Below, piece after piece: positions 1,168 through 14,217 of a stretch of 56,675 bases of DNA (position 1 is its first letter; each line of letters starts with the position of its first letter). A model generated the notes under the pieces. It saw only the letters and a list, made by a program, of their open reading frames with translations. It did not search any database and was not told the DNA's origin. Source of the DNA: an uncultured Opitutia bacterium (GTDB lineage Bacteria > Verrucomicrobiota > Verrucomicrobiia > Opitutales > Opitutaceae); contig CAIKHO010000035.1 in assembly GCA_903827245.1 (NCBI GenBank), positions 1 through 56,675 of the forward strand. Direction: 5' to 3'. Position numbers and translations under genes: made by a program.

Positions 1168-2234
1168 AGCATTTCCAGCTGCACGCCGCCGGGGCGCCGG
1201 AAGTGTGCGGTCGAAAGTTCCCGACGCTCCAAGTTCAGGCCCGCCTTGCGCGCGCCCATGCGGAAGAGTTCCCCGGCCTGCTCGGCAAAAATCCCCTCGC
1301 CGGTCATGCGGGAACCCCACGCACTCCGGTACAATTCGCCGCCGCGCACCGCGCGGATGCGGTCGAGGATGCGGGCCTTTTTCGCCGGCGCGTGATCATC
1401 GAGCCACTGGATGAAAAGGTCCTTCACCGCGTGGGGCAGACGCAGCATGACATAGCCGGCGGTCCTGGCTCCGGCTTCGGCGGCCGCGGCGAGGATGGCG
1501 GGCATTTCATGGTCGGTGAGGCCCGGGATGACCGGTGCCACCATCACGCCGACGGGCACGCCCGCCTCGGCGAGCAGCCGGATGGCCTGGAGGCGGTGCT
1601 CGGGCCGGGCGGCGCGCGGCTCGAGTTTGCCGGCGAGGTCGGGATCGAGGGTGGTCACCGAAACGTACACGATCACGCCGTCTTGCCGCGCGAGGTCCGC
1701 GAGGAGATCGCGGTCGCGCGTCACGAGGAAATTCTTGGTGATGACGGCGACGGGATTCCGGAACTCGGCGCAGACCTCAAGGCAGGCGCGGGTGAGGCGG
1801 AACTGCCGCTCGGCCGGCTGGTAGCAGTCGGTCACGCCGCTCATGGTGATGACCTGCGGCCGCCAGCCGGGGGCGGACAACTCGCGGCGCAGCAGCGCGG
1901 GGGCGCGGAGTTTCACCATGATCTTCGTCTCGAATTCGAGCCCGCTGGAGAATCCGAGGTACTCATGGAAGGGCCGGGCAAAGCAATAGGCGCACCCATG
2001 CTCGCAGCCGCGGTAGGCATTCAGCCCCATGTTGTGCCCGAGGTCGGGGCTGTCGCTCGCGGTGAGCAAGGACTCGCTGGCGTCGATGAAGAACTGCGTG
2101 CGTGGGTGGGTCCGCTCCTCCGGCGGGCAGTCCGGGTCGGGCTCGATATGCAGCCGCTCGAAGCGGTTCGGCGGGTTGAAGGCGACGCCCCGGCCCGGGA
2201 CGGGCGGCAGAGAGGCGGGTGGCGGCGCGGGCAT
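1164..2234 (-). CDS. SPL-type radical SAM protein (PA0069/Rv2578c family)
   Basis: This 356-residue protein carries the radical SAM cluster motif with Cys77, Cys81 and Cys84 in CEHGCAYCFAR, spacing CX3CX2C. It resembles the spore photoproduct lyase-like group annotated as PA0069-family, whose substrate is unknown. Other visible conserved parts are YRGC just before the cluster, TMSGVTDCYQP, and ITKNFLVTRD, which fit strands of the TIM barrel. The first 70 residues are proline-rich and precede the barrel. It is the upstream member of a two-gene unit with the hydrolase, whose start overlaps its stop by 4 bp. Confidence 0.88.
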   Translation of the reverse strand: MPAPPPASLPPVPGRGVAFNPPNRFERLHIEPDPDCPPEERTHPRTQFFIDASESLLTASDSPDLGHNMGLNAYRGCEHGCAYCFARPFHEYLGFSSGLEFETKIMVKLRAPALLRRELSAPGWRPQVITMSGVTDCYQPAERQFRLTRACLEVCAEFRNPVAVITKNFLVTRDRDLLADLARQDGVIVYVSVTTLDPDLAGKLEPRAARPEHRLQAIRLLAEAGVPVGVMVAPVIPGLTDHEMPAILAAAAEAGARTAGYVMLRLPHAVKDLFIQWLDDHAPAKKARILDRIRAVRGGELYRSAWGSRMTGEGIFAEQAGELFRMGARKAGLNLERRELSTAHFRRPGGVQLEML

Positions 2235-2316
2235 ACCGACACATTAGTGAGGCGCGAAAATGCGCCAGTGAAATTCGAACCCTTTCATTTAAATGACTTC
2301 CTCCGTCCCGGGTTTC

Positions 2317-2377
2317 CCTCGGATTGGCTCCTGTAAAATTTCCGATCGCGATCCGTTGCACAGGAGGCAAGCCGAGG
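2317..2377 (+). ncRNA. Conserved 60-bp hairpin element, copy 1
   Basis: Outer stem CCTCGG (2317-2322) pairs with CCGAGG (2372-2377). Inner stem CTCCTGT (2328-2334) pairs with ACAGGAG (2360-2366). The loop contains TGTAAAATTTCCGATC. The copy at 22946-23005 keeps both stems and most of the loop. Both lie upstream of plus-strand genes for exported proteins. It may be a structured leader, a small RNA or a dispersed repeat; the sequence does not decide. Confidence 0.5.
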
Positions 2378-2460
2378 ACGACCCGAGCCTCCGCCCCGTT
2401 CCATGGCCGATCAAGGTTTGCAGGGGCACTTCGGCTGCCTGAGCCTGTCGCAGCCATCCC

Positions 2461-3447
2461 ATGAAGAAACGCCTAGTCCCCGTGTTCCTTGTTCTGCTCA
2501 TCCCGTGCGCCAAGGGGCGCGCGGCGGAGACCGCGTCGGTTCCGGCTCCGGCCGAGCCAATGGCGGCATCGCCTTCCGCGGCCGAGCAGGGCCTGCAGGC
2601 GCTGGTGGCGCGGCAGCAGGAGTTGCTGGCGGGCGCTGAGAAGGCCGGAAAAAATTTCGACGAGGAAAACTTTCGCACGCAGATGCAGGACCTGGCGAAC
2701 GACTACGACACATATCTCAAGAAAAATCCCGATTATGCGCCGGCCTACGCGGCCTATGGCGTGATGCTGGGCAAGATCAGCATGCGCCGGCAGTCGGCGG
2801 TGATGCTGCTGAAGGCGGACGAGCTCCTGGCCCGCGACGCGCAGAAGGACGGGGCGCGCACCGCGGCCTTCCTCCGCACCTGGGCCCTCGTGAAAAACCA
2901 GCTCGGCAACTATGTCGCCGAGGAGGGCAAGCCGCTGCAGGCGGTGACCTATTACCTCGACGCCATCGATCTCACGCCGAACGAGCCGCTTTATCACTAT
3001 CAGCTCGGGACGCTGCTGACGGAGGCCCGCGACGATTTCCTGAAAAGCGACCAGTGGACGCGCCCCGTGCTCGACAAGGCGATGCATGCCTCCTTCCAGC
3101 GCGCGGCGGAACTCGCGCCCGGCCGCATCGAGTTCGGCTACCGCTACGCCGAATCCTTCGCCGACCTCGAGGTGCCGGACTGGGACGGGGCCCTGAAGGC
3201 TTGGGCGGCCTTGGAGGAGAAAGCCACGTCGGATTTCGACCGGCAGACCATGCGCCTGCAGGCCGCCAATATCCTCATCAAGCAGCAGAAATTCGATCTG
3301 GCGCGCGTGTTGCTCGACACGGTCACGGTCGAACCGCTGCAAAAGGAACGGCAGAAACTCGTGGCGGCCCTGAGCGCGTCCGCGGCGGCACCCGCACTGG
3401 CGCCGGCCGGTCCGACCGCAGAGGTCCCGGCAGCACCCGCAAAATAA
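2461..3447 (+). CDS. Exported TPR-repeat protein
   Basis: The 328-residue product starts with a signal peptide, MKKRLVPVFLVLLIPCAKG, with likely cleavage after ARAA-type residues near 22. A Cys at 16 is not in a clean lipobox. The body is helical with TPR-like pieces such as YLKKNPDYAPAYAAYGVML, AVTYYLDAIDLTPNEPLYHY and an alanine-rich segment near 200-290. The last 35 residues are Ala/Pro-rich and probably disordered. TPRs mediate protein contacts; no enzyme motif is seen. The rhomboid-like gene follows on the same strand after 59 bp. Upstream lies hairpin element copy 1. Confidence 0.8.
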   Translation: MKKRLVPVFLVLLIPCAKGRAAETASVPAPAEPMAASPSAAEQGLQALVARQQELLAGAEKAGKNFDEENFRTQMQDLANDYDTYLKKNPDYAPAYAAYGVMLGKISMRRQSAVMLLKADELLARDAQKDGARTAAFLRTWALVKNQLGNYVAEEGKPLQAVTYYLDAIDLTPNEPLYHYQLGTLLTEARDDFLKSDQWTRPVLDKAMHASFQRAAELAPGRIEFGYRYAESFADLEVPDWDGALKAWAALEEKATSDFDRQTMRLQAANILIKQQKFDLARVLLDTVTVEPLQKERQKLVAALSASAAAPALAPAGPTAEVPAAPAK

Positions 3448-3506
3448 TCGGCGCCGCCGGTTTTTTGATTTCGCCCCGGACGCGGCTGTGCTCAGCTGGA
3501 CGCCGC

Positions 3507-10107: not shown

Positions 10108-10485
10108 CTAGAGGCCTGAGGCGAAAGGCGTGGAGGCGACGCGGGCGCAAGAAGGCGGGATTGGCCGCGCCGAATCGGTGGAAGATGGACCTATCCACCG
10201 CAGCCTTGGCGAAGGTGGCACCGGGTCGAATCCACCCGGGTTCAGCGGCGTGCATCTCACCAACCGGCGCAGAGTGAGCCAGGAGCCGCGAATGGCGCCA
10301 TGCGCTTCCACGGCGCCGACGGCGTAGTGGGAGCAGGTTGGGGAAAACCGGCAGCCGCAGGCCGAGCCGAAGACCGCGGGGAGGAGGGGGGAAAAAAAAC
10401 GCCGGTAGAGCCCGATGAGCCGAAGCAGCAGTCGCGCGGCCACGCCCGGGGCGCGCAGGGAGGGCGAGGAGGAAATGTCAGGCAT
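10108..10485 (-). CDS. yidD: Membrane protein insertion efficiency factor YidD
   Basis: The 125-residue product has the YidD signature RFFSPLLPAVFG, CGCRFSPTCSHYAVGAVEAHG and RCTPLNPGGFDPVP. YidD is a small membrane-associated factor that aids Sec/YidC insertion. Typical members end soon after GGFDPVP; this one continues about 40 more residues, rich in Ser, Arg and Pro, of doubtful significance. ATG 10485 overlaps the stop of rnpA by 8 bp, and yidC starts 23 bp downstream. Confidence 0.9.
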   Translation of the reverse strand: MPDISSSPSLRAPGVAARLLLRLIGLYRRFFSPLLPAVFGSACGCRFSPTCSHYAVGAVEAHGAIRGSWLTLRRLVRCTPLNPGGFDPVPPSPRLRWIGPSSTDSARPIPPSCARVASTPFASGL

Positions 10486-10840
10486 TGGGCGGAGGCGTGA
10501 TCTTGCGACAGGCGGAGATGAACTTTTGCTCCACTTCGGCATAGTCGAGGCGAAGCACCGCAGCGCGGGCGACCAGCAGGAGGTCGCAATCGACGGGCAC
10601 GAGATTCTGGTGGTGGCGAAACACCTCGCGCAAGCGGCGTTTTGCCCGGGTGCGCTGGACGGCGGCGCCGACGGCGGCGATCGAGGCGACGACGCCGACG
10701 CGGGCGGACGGGTCCTTGACCGGCGGTGTGCGCCGGTGCCACCAGAGGGTGAACGCGCCGCAATCGACCCGGTGCCCCTCGGCCCGCACGGCGCGAAAAT
10801 CAGCCTGGCGGCGCAGGTGCTGCTCCGGGCGGAAGCGCAT
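10478..10840 (-). CDS. rnpA: Ribonuclease P protein component
   Basis: The 120-residue basic protein carries the RnpA core: RRQADFRAVRAEGHR near the start, VGVVAS, and the RNA-binding RTRAKRRLREVFRHH helix. It assists the catalytic RNA of RNase P in trimming tRNA 5' leaders. It lies 27 bp after rpmH and overlaps yidD by 8 bp, the arrangement found in most bacteria. Confidence 0.93.
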   Translation of the reverse strand: MRFRPEQHLRRQADFRAVRAEGHRVDCGAFTLWWHRRTPPVKDPSARVGVVASIAAVGAAVQRTRAKRRLREVFRHHQNLVPVDCDLLLVARAAVLRLDYAEVEQKFISACRKITPPPNA

Positions 10841-10867
10841 GGGGCGGGCCCGGCAGGGCGGAAAGAC

Positions 10868-11005
10868 TCAGACGACCGTCAGCCGCTTGCGACCCTTGAG
10901 GCGGCGGGACTTGATGACCTTGCGGCCGCCACGGGTGGCCATACGGGCACGATAACCGATCTTGCGGGCGCGCTTCTTGCGGTGCGGGCGGAATGTAGGT
11001 TGCAT
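10868..11005 (-). CDS. rpmH: 50S ribosomal protein L34
   Basis: A 45-residue frame starting at ATG 11005 reads [20 protein letters not shown] and ends GRKRLTVV. It holds the L34 motif with [11 protein letters not shown]. The family starts MKRTFQPS or similar and is 44-46 residues, so this is complete. It is the first gene of the rpmH-rnpA-yidD-yidC block; its promoter should lie in 11006-11264. Confidence 0.95.
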
Positions 11006-11069
11006 GACGTTTAAAGAAAAAGAGGGTCAGAGGTGCCTGACACGCGGGCAAACTTCAAGCCCCGAAATT

Positions 11070-11200
11070 TTTAGCCGCGAAAAGACACGAAATGACGCAA
11101 AAACCGGCAGACTCTCTTTTGGGTCATTTCGTGCCTTGTATGCCGGGAACAAGGCACAAGGGAAGAGCGGCAAAGGCTCTTCGCGGCCAAAACAATCTTT
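11070..11200. repeat. Nested inverted repeats upstream of rpmH
   Basis: TTAGCCGCGAAAAGACACG (from 11071) is followed by an inverted counterpart GTCATTTCGTGCC (about 11123-11135). A second hairpin GTGCCTTG/CAAGGCAC lies at 11131-11157, and CTCTTCGCGGCCAA closes the outer arm near 11190. The words resemble those at 55275-55349 (CGCGAAAAGACGC-type). It fills the rpmH upstream region and lacks a clean terminator tract. Confidence 0.55.
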
Positions 11201-11264
11201 CTGGGGCCGTAAATTTGCCCGCGGCCGGAGGCAACGTTTGGGCTAGTCGGCCGGCTTCAGGACC

Positions 11265-12356
11265 TCAGCAAGCGGTAGATGCATTGGAGCGTCTCATACG
11301 ATGGAGCCCCACACCTAAAATGACCGGCATCAGCATTAGCAGCGTGCTGCCGGAATCGGGCACCGCGCTGTTGTTGCTCTCCGAACCTTGATAATTGGCC
11401 AGCTGAAGGATCGCTCTGGCTCCCCCATCACTGGATGTTATTGTGCTAAAATACAGAAGGCCGCTTGTGGGGTCGAACGCCGAGGTGCCCGACCACTGGA
11501 TCGAGTCGCCTACCGAGTGTCCGGAGTGGCGCAGGCGCATCGCTGCCTTCTGCAGGAGCCGGTGCAGCACGGCGAGCGCGGCTTCGTCGTTCCGCAGCTG
11601 CGGCGGCAGCACGTGGCCGTGGCCGATGGTGTTGTGCCGGGACGCCTCGCGCTCCTGCGGCTCGCCACGCATCCAGCTGTAGAACCGCGCCCCCTCGACG
11701 CTGCCCCAGATGGCGCGCAGACGGTCGCGGCTCGCGGCGTAAAGTTTCTCAACGGTATCGATGCCGGCACGACGCAGGCGGGCCTCCATGTTTTCGCCGA
11801 TGCCGCAGAAGTCCCGCAGTTCTAGTCGGAGGAGTTTTTGCGGGAGGTCCGTGTTGTCGAGCAGCACGAGGCCGTCGGGCTTCTGCATGTCGGAGGCCAC
11901 CTTGGCGATGAACCAGTTGGGGCCGATGCCGATGGAGCTACGCAGGCAGGGACCGGCCTGCCGGGAAACCTTTTCCTCGATGCGGCGGGCGAGGGCGAGG
12001 GCCTGCGCGGGGACGGCCAGGTCGCCGCTCAGTTCGCATTCCAGCTCGTCGATTGACTGCACCTTCTTCACGGGAGCGCACGACTCGACGATGTCCTTCA
12101 GCCGGCGGTGATAGTCGATGTAGACGGCGGGTCGCGCCTCGACGATGACGAGGCCCGGGCACTGGCGGCGGGCCTCGGCGACGCGCGCGTTTCGGGTCAG
12201 GCCGAGGGCCTTGGCCTCGATGCTCACGGCGATGCAGCCGGTGGTCTCGGCCATGATGGGCACGATGCCGACCGGGTGCCCGCGCAGTTCCGGCCGCTCT
12301 TGCTTCTCGACGGAGGCGAAAAAGGAGTTGAAATCGATGGCGAGCGCGCGGAGCAC
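11265..12356 (-). CDS. Y-family DNA polymerase fused to a VPDSG sorting tail
   Basis: Residues 1-280 are a Y-family (DinB/ImuB-like) polymerase: DFNSFFASVEKQ, a SIDELECE catalytic acidic motif, GIGPNWFIAKVASDMQKPDG and FCGIGENMEARLRRAGI. It breaks off at LLQKAAMRLRHSGH, inside what should be the little-finger domain. The next 83 residues have no polymerase character and end in VPDSGSTLLML, a hydrophobic helix, and HRMRRSNAS. That is a VPDSG-CTERM exosortase substrate tail. Base composition drops from about 11516 on, matching the junction. GTG 12356 is the only plausible start. The product is unlikely to be a working polymerase or an exported protein. Confidence 0.7.
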   Translation of the reverse strand: MLRALAIDFNSFFASVEKQERPELRGHPVGIVPIMAETTGCIAVSIEAKALGLTRNARVAEARRQCPGLVIVEARPAVYIDYHRRLKDIVESCAPVKKVQSIDELECELSGDLAVPAQALALARRIEEKVSRQAGPCLRSSIGIGPNWFIAKVASDMQKPDGLVLLDNTDLPQKLLRLELRDFCGIGENMEARLRRAGIDTVEKLYAASRDRLRAIWGSVEGARFYSWMRGEPQEREASRHNTIGHGHVLPPQLRNDEAALAVLHRLLQKAAMRLRHSGHSVGDSIQWSGTSAFDPTSGLLYFSTITSSDGGARAILQLANYQGSESNNSAVPDSGSTLLMLMPVILGVGLHRMRRSNASTAC

Positions 12357-12410
12357 CCGCGCAATCTCCGCCTGGGCGGAGGCCTGTCAAACTGCACCAT
12401 GACGGACATG

Positions 12411-12487
12411 GTTTCACGCCACGACGCTACGCAGCAAAAGATAAAAGGGAATCGCAGGCGTGGCGTCGCTGCGTCGTGGCGCGAAAC
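12411..12487. repeat. CACGACGC inverted repeat before the polymerase fusion
   Basis: GTTTCACGCCACGACGC (from 12411) is inverted as GCGTCGTGGCGCGAAAC ending at 12486, with another partial copy GGCGTGGCGTCGCTGCG in between. It occupies the gap between the LpxR-like gene and the polymerase fusion. Confidence 0.55.
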
Positions 12488-12539: not shown

Positions 12540-13574
12540 TCAGAAAGCGCGGCTGAGCGTCACGGAGCCGAACTTGTCGGAGCTCTCGCGCTCGGTCTTG
12601 AATTCCTTGGTGCGTTGCACCTGCGTGAAGGTGAGCTGCCACCGGCCGGCGATCAGGCCGGCGCCCCAGCTCAGGTCCGCCACCAGCGGCTCCTTGTTCA
12701 CATGCGGGCCGTCCCGCCACGTGTTGCCATCGAGAAAGATGTCCCGCGCCACCGCGCGGCCGTCGGCGGCGCCGAAGATAAAGAAGCTCCAGTTCTTGTG
12801 CGGGGACACCCGGGGATCGAGGTCGTCGATGGGCGTACTGCCGGCGCCACCCGGGCGGATGAGCTGCACGCCGAAGTCGCTGGGCAGGTTGAAGCCCAGC
12901 CGCAAGGTGCCGCCGGCGTTGGCATAGGTCTGGATGTTGCCGAGGCTGGCGCCGGCATGCGGGATGAAATCGGCCCCGAGCGTGTCGGACAGGGCGCGGG
13001 CGTAGAGCCGCCATTTGCGCTCATAGACAATGTTCACGCCCGGCTCGTCCTTGAGCTGGTATTCCCAGCCGTTGGGGCGGGCATTGCCGGTCCAGCGGTG
13101 AACGGCGCGCTGCACGTCCCCCGCATAAGAGTGCGGGCCGACCATGCCGGCTTGGAGTGAAAGGGTGTCGAGCAACGTCTCGGTTTTGCTGAGGAAGGAA
13201 AGCTCCAGGTACGACCACCCGGCGTAAGGCCGGTCGGTGGGGTCGGGCACCACGCGGTCGCGGTCCTGCGGCGTGTACATGTTCTGGCCGAAGGCAAAGC
13301 CCAAGTCTTTCTGCGCGTCCGGGCGGTTGACGAAGGGCAGGGCGTCAACGAAGTTTTTCCTCCAACCTTCCGGCGCCCAAGAGGCAAGATCGCGGGTAAG
13401 CCAGGAAAATTTCACGCCGTTGGTGTAGTGGCGGTCGGTGCCGCCGAAAAAATCGTTCTCAAAATACAGGGTGAAGACGGGCGCGGTCTCCGCGTGCGTG
13501 ACCGGGACGTCGTCGGCACGCAGAAACCAAGGACAAAGTATAAGGGGCAGCAGGATTCTGATGAAGCGTGGCAT
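12540..13574 (-). CDS. LpxR-like outer-membrane lipid A deacylase (DUF2219)
   Basis: The 344-residue product has a signal peptide (MPRFIRILLPLILCPWFLRA). The mature part matches the LpxR/DUF2219 beta-barrel family. Near the mature start is ENDFFGGTDRHYTNG, which carries the Asn-Asp and Thr/Ser-type active-site residues of LpxR. VGPHSYAGDVQ and GWEYQLKDEPG follow, and the C-terminus ends in the aromatic SRAF expected of an outer-membrane barrel. LpxR removes the 3'-acyloxyacyl chain of lipid A. The frame is open to 13850, but only ATG 13574 gives a signal peptide. Deacylase activity is inferred, not shown. Confidence 0.85.
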   Translation of the reverse strand: MPRFIRILLPLILCPWFLRADDVPVTHAETAPVFTLYFENDFFGGTDRHYTNGVKFSWLTRDLASWAPEGWRKNFVDALPFVNRPDAQKDLGFAFGQNMYTPQDRDRVVPDPTDRPYAGWSYLELSFLSKTETLLDTLSLQAGMVGPHSYAGDVQRAVHRWTGNARPNGWEYQLKDEPGVNIVYERKWRLYARALSDTLGADFIPHAGASLGNIQTYANAGGTLRLGFNLPSDFGVQLIRPGGAGSTPIDDLDPRVSPHKNWSFFIFGAADGRAVARDIFLDGNTWRDGPHVNKEPLVADLSWGAGLIAGRWQLTFTQVQRTKEFKTERESSDKFGSVTLSRAF

Positions 13575-13650
13575 GCTCCGATAGTGCCGCCCGGCAGGTG
13601 TTAGTTCCTTCAGCCATGGTCTTGGACGTAATTGGCCCGGAGCAAGTCGT

Positions 13651-14217
13651 TCAGGGTGCACCCGGCTGGAAGCCAATCCTGCACCGCGGCCGTTCGGGCG
13701 GACGTGCGAGGAGCAGCATGAGTTGGTCCACGACATCGCGCAGCACGACATCGTGGTCCAGCCGCTTGCGATCGATCCGGGACAGGCGCTTGAGAACAGC
13801 GGCGCTGGTGAGCAGTTCCTGCCGCATCCGCACAAAGGCGCGGACGGCATAAACGCTCATGGCCACCGCGCGCTCGCTGCGCAGGATCGTCGCGGCCATG
13901 ATGGCGCCGTCCTCGGTGAAGACCCAGGGCGGCTTGTGCATGCCGCCGTGTCCGCCGTACGAAGTTGGGCCGGCATCGGAAGTTGAAGTCAAAATTTGTG
14001 ACTTCAAGTTTGTAACCTACGCACGACTAAGTTGAAACGCGAAATCGGAAGGGAAGCACCCGGCTTTTCTCAGGATCGCCTGATTGAACGCCTTCTTTGC
14101 GACAGGGTAGAGTTCTGCAGGATCGCGATCGAGCATGACGGGCTGTCCGCGAAGGACGTAGAAGGGCGACAGAGCAAGATCGACGGGCATAAGCCGGAAG
14201 TGAGAGGGACGATTCAT
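13651..14217 (-). pseudogene. ORF6N-domain gene with an in-frame TAG
   Basis: From ATG 14217 the frame reads through the ORF6N core (RGQPVMLDRDPAELYPV, FPSDFAFQLSRA). It hits TAG at 14017-14019 and then continues in the same frame with VTNLKSQILTS, FTEDGAIMAATIL and FVRMRQELL to a stop at 13651. In relatives the position of the TAG is usually Glu, one base from TAG. One nonsense change therefore splits an otherwise intact gene of about 188 codons. ORF6N proteins are putative DNA-binding proteins first seen in phage and widely spread in chromosomes. Read-through or sequencing error are alternatives. Confidence 0.78.

Follow-up and report, generated by a model that had tools for sequence, protein, structure and literature searches.

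A Y-family DNA polymerase gene joined in frame to the 3' end of a VPDSG-CTERM gene in an Opitutaceae bacterium, probably by local recombination

Are chance joins between unrelated genes dead on arrival, or are they raw material for new proteins? The question is raised by an open reading frame in the window, which here refers to the whole stretch of 56,675 nucleotides analyzed from contig CAIKHO010000035.1 of an uncultured Opitutia bacterium. An earlier note, made from the letters alone, had interpreted this frame as two gene ends brought together by a deletion or recombination, or as an assembly chimera. The joining is supported, and recombination is favored over a chimera because sequence syntenic with a sister locus lies on both sides of the insert. 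The likely explanation is a local recombination event in which a dispensable Y-family polymerase gene lost its 3' third and received the 3' end of a gene for a VPDSG-CTERM protein instead. The event was probably recent, and its outcome seems to be a commonplace product of gene rearrangement and not a novel type of protein. The gene fusion would thus have been caught early, with the ancestral arrangement kept in a sister species, so that the fate of such joins becomes testable on a defined case. It also carries a warning for annotation, namely that domain calls by themselves would suggest a DNA polymerase sorted to the cell surface, although no such working protein is likely to exist.

The reading frame extends from 12356 to 11265 on the minus strand, begins with a GTG start codon, and is open throughout its 363 codons. 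Residues 1 to 280 (11517 to 12356, minus strand) form the Y-family polymerase core with the palm, the fingers, the thumb, and the start of the little finger, as delineated by Pfam matches, DNA identity to the related locus L003, and an AlphaFold prediction. The Pfam IMS model matches residues 7 to 156 with an E-value of 8.8e-29, and the catalytic palm/fingers domain is thus present. A thumb model matches residues 182 to 231. The IMS_C match is confined to residues 243 to 285, corresponding to profile positions 3 to 44 of 109, and the little-finger domain is therefore incomplete; in L003 it is complete, with a match from residues 243 to 345 (profile positions 3 to 102). Asp 8, Asp 103, and Glu 104, presumably the catalytic acidic residues of the polymerase active site, fall in invariant columns of the family alignment (alignments A1 and A2, each with the window and 31 of 42 relatives). 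When AlphaFold was provided with the family alignment, residues 1 to 230 were predicted with high confidence and residues 275 to 363, including the tail, with pLDDT values below 50. A prediction without an alignment was uninformative (pLDDT 34.6). The promoter scan returned no hits and the terminator scan one, with 1.6 expected.

The remaining 83 residues and the stop codon (11265 to 11516, minus strand) are in the same frame as the core and display the features of a VPDSG-CTERM protein, namely a C-terminal VPDSG motif, a hydrophobic stretch, and a basic end. The Pfam VPDSG-CTERM match covers residues 331 to 353. Measured against the curated cut-offs this match is borderline, with 24.5 bits in the scan of the protein and 29.3 bits in the scan of the genome (cut-off 25 for both), and 17.3 bits for TIGR03778 (cut-off 22).

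The junction between core and tail was placed at 11505 to 11526 on the basis of the ends of the BLAST matches and a drop in DNA identity. Similarity ends at 11518 for L003/L050, at 11516 for L004/L051, and at 11526 for L052, and thus between 11516 and 11526 over four relatives. Note that L003/L050, L004/L051, and L023/L058, pairs whose contigs have the same length, were taken as the same records rather than as independent ones. The GC content changes from 68% in the core to 57% in the coding sequence of the tail, and GC3 changes from 0.88 to 0.64. The earlier note had proposed that the core ends near residue 280 within the little finger, that an 83-residue VPDSG tail begins at about 11516, and that base composition shifts at the join; the Pfam matches, the BLAST ends, and the GC values bear out all of this.

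DNA identity to L003 is 63/72 just before the junction and 22/72 after it in the best little-finger register. This bears on a different reading, in which the tail is not foreign and begins with a little finger that has diverged strongly, the VPDSG end having arisen or been added later. There is some similarity of this kind: the first 30 residues of the tail, when compared with the little-finger region of 39 relatives, gave a best score of 52, which was reached by 2 of 300 shuffles and by none of 265 pieces of real proteins, and the tblastn matches of relatives often extend to residues 303 to 314 (to 350 in L024). The register, however, requires a nine-residue gap, the identity collapses at the junction, and the ends of VPDSG proteins score 84 to 91 over the tail, with a blade of a quinoprotein from the same genome reaching 70. 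On the basis of the identity drop and the better fit of the VPDSG proteins, the similarity was rejected as homology, and a diverged little finger is very improbable.

Evidence for a replacement comes from L003 (CAIUWA010000052.1), a locus from a genome of the same genus (G002), where an intact polymerase of 427 residues is encoded at the same genomic place. The window and L003 share 84% DNA identity over 11518 to 12396 and 79.6% over 10214 to 11041, with order and orientation kept. The segment separating these blocks is 476 bp long in the window versus 642 bp in L003, with no BLAST match. The gene upstream of the fusion (12540 to 13850, minus strand) belongs to the LpxR family (Pfam PF09982, E-value of 7.6e-106) and is 82% identical in DNA to L003 over 12540 to 13517. 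The next gene downstream (10868 to 11005, minus strand), recognized from its translation, lies in the stretch syntenic with L003 and encodes 45 residues; judged by its sequence, we take it to be rpmH (ribosomal protein L34). In L003, as in the window, the LpxR gene is upstream and the rpmH-like gene downstream. The gene in the window thus shares with L003 and similar Opitutaceae Y-family polymerases (IMS; DNA polymerase IV/UmuC-like) the core to about residue 280, the start codon, the genomic place, and both flanking genes, but differs from them in having a foreign tail in place of most of the little finger and the C-terminal extension. Since the polymerase is intact at this position in a congeneric relative, the join is the derived state.

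In another genome of the genus (G001, 72% complete), no member of the polymerase family lies between the LpxR and rpmH-like genes; what stands there instead is another gene (L100, approximately 2146 to 3485), whose product is probably exported, as judged by eye. From the sequences of these loci, the interval is one that appears to turn over between species.

With the replacement, the polymerase has lost its C-terminal extension and the greater part of its little finger. This domain is a hallmark of Y-family polymerases, and in DinB its residues 303 to 305 touch the clamp (PMC3901139). Without the extension and most of this domain, translesion synthesis should be abolished or severely impaired. 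The product is accordingly most likely not a working translesion polymerase, and the rearrangement would have inactivated it.

The right side of the insert is less sharply defined than the left. The spacer from the fusion gene to the rpmH-like gene contains a nested palindromic element (11043 to 11223) composed of the inverted repeats I1, I3, and I4. Related copies are found on at least four other contigs (C56, C78, C65, and C9), and these are short and diverged, with 71 to 91% identity over 22 to 84 nt. Together they resemble families of the REP or MITE type. In L003, too, a similar hairpin precedes the rpmH-like gene. Since the element is closer to the copies in its own genome (E-values down to 1e-7) than to the hairpin of L003 (7e-4), it may have arrived with the tail or may belong to the place, and thus the clearly foreign part extends at least from 11224 to 11517. 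A second short repeat, at 12457 to 12487 upstream of the polymerase, recurs almost unchanged on contigs C30, C72, and C23 (27 to 31 bp, 90 to 100%).

Palindromic repeats adjoining the right junction are among the circumstances under which an assembler might falsely join a polymerase with part of a VPDSG gene. The assembly comprises 91 contigs, and neither a close donor nor a second copy of the tail was found. With both flanks syntenic with the sister locus, however, two false joins within approximately 480 bp would be needed, and a single-copy tail together with short, diverged repeat copies provides poor ground for confusion. We therefore consider an assembly chimera unlikely.

The favored recombination event can be envisaged as follows. 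In this lineage, the 3' third of the polymerase gene, together with some of the downstream spacer, would have been exchanged for the 3' end of a VPDSG gene, and the two reading frames would have happened to agree, giving a single frame of 363 residues. The palindromic element at the right side may have helped by providing a short homologous joint with the incoming fragment. Alternatively, the polymerase and a VPDSG gene may once have been neighbors, with a deletion between them for which the element served as the break site. No selection need be invoked for the in-frame join, as joining two open frames on the same strand would preserve the frame in one case out of three. Homology at one end only would fit homology-facilitated illegitimate recombination (PMC3240628) if the palindromic element supplied the homology. 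A literature search returned nothing that connects this type of recombination with gene fusion.

Where did the tail originate? It is single copy in its own genome, in which, besides itself, two weak matches were observed (E-values of 0.014 and 0.91). At E ≤ 0.01, 11 of 252 family genomes, its own among them, gave relatives of the tail, with identities of 34 to 44%; this search gave no match in G001 or G002. At E ≤ 0.001, 2 of 387 phylum genomes, again including its own, contained a relative. No close donor was found in the genome itself, the 252 family genomes, or the 387 phylum genomes. Likewise, a strict pattern search for a VPDSG gene in the 44 related loci (L003 to L046), several of which are cut by contig ends, revealed none besides that of the window.

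The best relatives of the tail are VPDSG proteins of 213 to 233 residues from genome G049, which have a WSG..AFDP stretch in common with it ahead of the motif, along with a 325-residue propeller-like protein from genome G144 with a weak SGL match under its cut-off. Over the whole tail, the G049 proteins score 84 to 90 and the G144 protein 91, and none of these scores was reached in 1000 shuffles. When only the portion preceding VPDSG is considered, the G049 proteins score 53 to 55 (reached by 0, 3, and 1 of 1000 shuffles) and the G144 protein 48 (1 of 1000 shuffles, and 10 of 1000 against the longer protein). Another VPDSG protein from the same G049 locus scores 42, a value reached by 64 of 1000 shuffles. 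A comparable AFDP..G.LY stretch occurs in the quinoprotein of the genome under study, and the score of this protein, 70, was reached by none of 265 pieces of real proteins. Because the G049-type proteins fit equally well, a β-propeller protein is one candidate donor rather than the favored one. The tail thus resembles the end of a VPDSG-protein gene like those of other Opitutaceae, with both the G049-type and the G144-type as candidates. VPDSG-CTERM proteins (PF18205, TIGR03778) such as these share with it the VPDSG motif, the hydrophobic stretch, and the basic end, with weaker similarity before the motif; their N-terminal part is absent from the fusion. That missing N-terminus, which the earlier note had proposed to look for, was sought with the G144 protein as a single proxy donor and was not found: the search returned the tail itself and a match with an E-value of 0.067 in its own genome (G000), a match with 0.028 in G002, and none in G001. 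A literature search yielded nothing on VPDSG-CTERM, and the papers naming VPDSG were unrelated by title.

The earlier note had read the tail as the signal of exosortase-processed proteins. The features of the signal are present; an XrtC-like exosortase was not found in the genome. XrtC is the VPDSG-specific exosortase. The two exosortase matches in the genome score 45.2 and 33.7 bits on the XrtC model (TIGR04151, cut-off 300), the matched stretches alone having been scanned. As a yardstick, G049, where 36 VPDSG matches were obtained at E ≤ 0.01, has an exosortase that scores 261.8 bits, a value under the cut-off because here too only the matched stretch was scanned. With the genome being 97% complete, absence of an XrtC-like enzyme is likely though not certain. 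The genome contains five matches to the VPDSG model at E ≤ 1, of which the tail of the fusion is the sole one over the cut-off; the other four are weak, and three of these end in VPEPST, resembling PEP-CTERM. By eye, the fusion protein, whose N-terminus is the polymerase start, has no signal peptide. The lack of both a visible signal peptide and a detectable XrtC-like exosortase, which sets the gene product apart from VPDSG-CTERM proteins, suggests that the tail does no sorting.

These observations weigh on the possibility that the fusion is functional and under selection, with the tail anchoring a cut-down polymerase at the membrane or altering its contact with DNA. The frame is indeed open across the join, and the core is conserved. 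A recent event would account for the conserved core equally well, however, and against a function stand the mostly missing little finger, the low pLDDT values of the tail, and the sorting results just described. Moreover, the same complete fusion in relatives, which in the earlier note would have implied function, was looked for, and no such tail was seen on other polymerases among the relatives searched (loci, whole genomes, and family and phylum genomes). A functional fusion is thus very unlikely. A membrane-anchored Y-family polymerase of low processivity, in which β-strands of the tail replace part of the little finger, would be an architecture derived from the in-frame capture of a sorting tail; we consider it extremely unlikely.

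The state of the core was assessed in several ways. Its dN/dS relative to L003 is 0.144. When changes were polarized by L004, the window showed 31.5 synonymous and 9.5 non-synonymous changes, and L003 showed 30.5 and 13.5. Private departures from the family majority number 13 in the window versus 4 in L003, which would point in the direction opposite to preserved constraint. In a conservation test with the window and 40 relatives (L023 and L043 left out), 86 columns are invariant in the 40 others, and the window alters two of them, at residue 18 and at residue 282 at the junction. By the same test, L003 and L004 each alter 0 of 85 columns and L041 alters 18 of 103. The core shows no clear decay or loss of constraint, and these mixed results are compatible with a recent event.

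The relatives comprise 44 loci (L003 to L046) from a scan of genome contigs, of which 42 were translated, the two exceptions being L045 and L046, which are truncated at contig ends. In 41 of the 42, all from other genomes, the conserved C-terminal motif is in frame, the exception being L023 (among the 41, L043 starts inside the gene and L012 stops at a contig end). Complete relatives contain 422 to 442 residues, apart from L017 with 465 and the frameshifted L023. The C-terminal extension of L003 has a weak DUF4113 match at residues 363 to 386, under its cut-off. An incomplete pattern check on 29 loci (L050 to L078) gave no mark in seven and an N-terminal mark only in four more. The lost C-terminus of the polymerase, another sequence that was to be sought, gave no match at E ≤ 10 in its own genome, a search with no positive control within that genome. 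Taking a match at E ≤ 1e-60 as membership, the polymerase family is represented in 35 of 95 related whole genomes, including its own, and any Y-family match in 85 of the 95; the patchy distribution of the family suggests that the polymerase is dispensable. One other Y-family gene is present in the genome, on contig C27, with 34% identity over residues 6 to 219.

Several relatives display irregularities of their own. In L023 (6001 to approximately 9057, plus strand), the polymerase shifts frame in the little finger, with AAMRLR in frame 0 and GKNSVYFG in frame 2, and its frame then continues into the gene that follows, which we take to be a γ-glutamyltransferase; this may be a real frameshift or an assembly error. 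The polymerase match at G007:C1:6476221-6477065 is divided between two frames and is possibly a damaged copy. Finally, one polymerase copy at G003:C4:104360-105055, with an open frame of just 254 residues, is possibly damaged as well.
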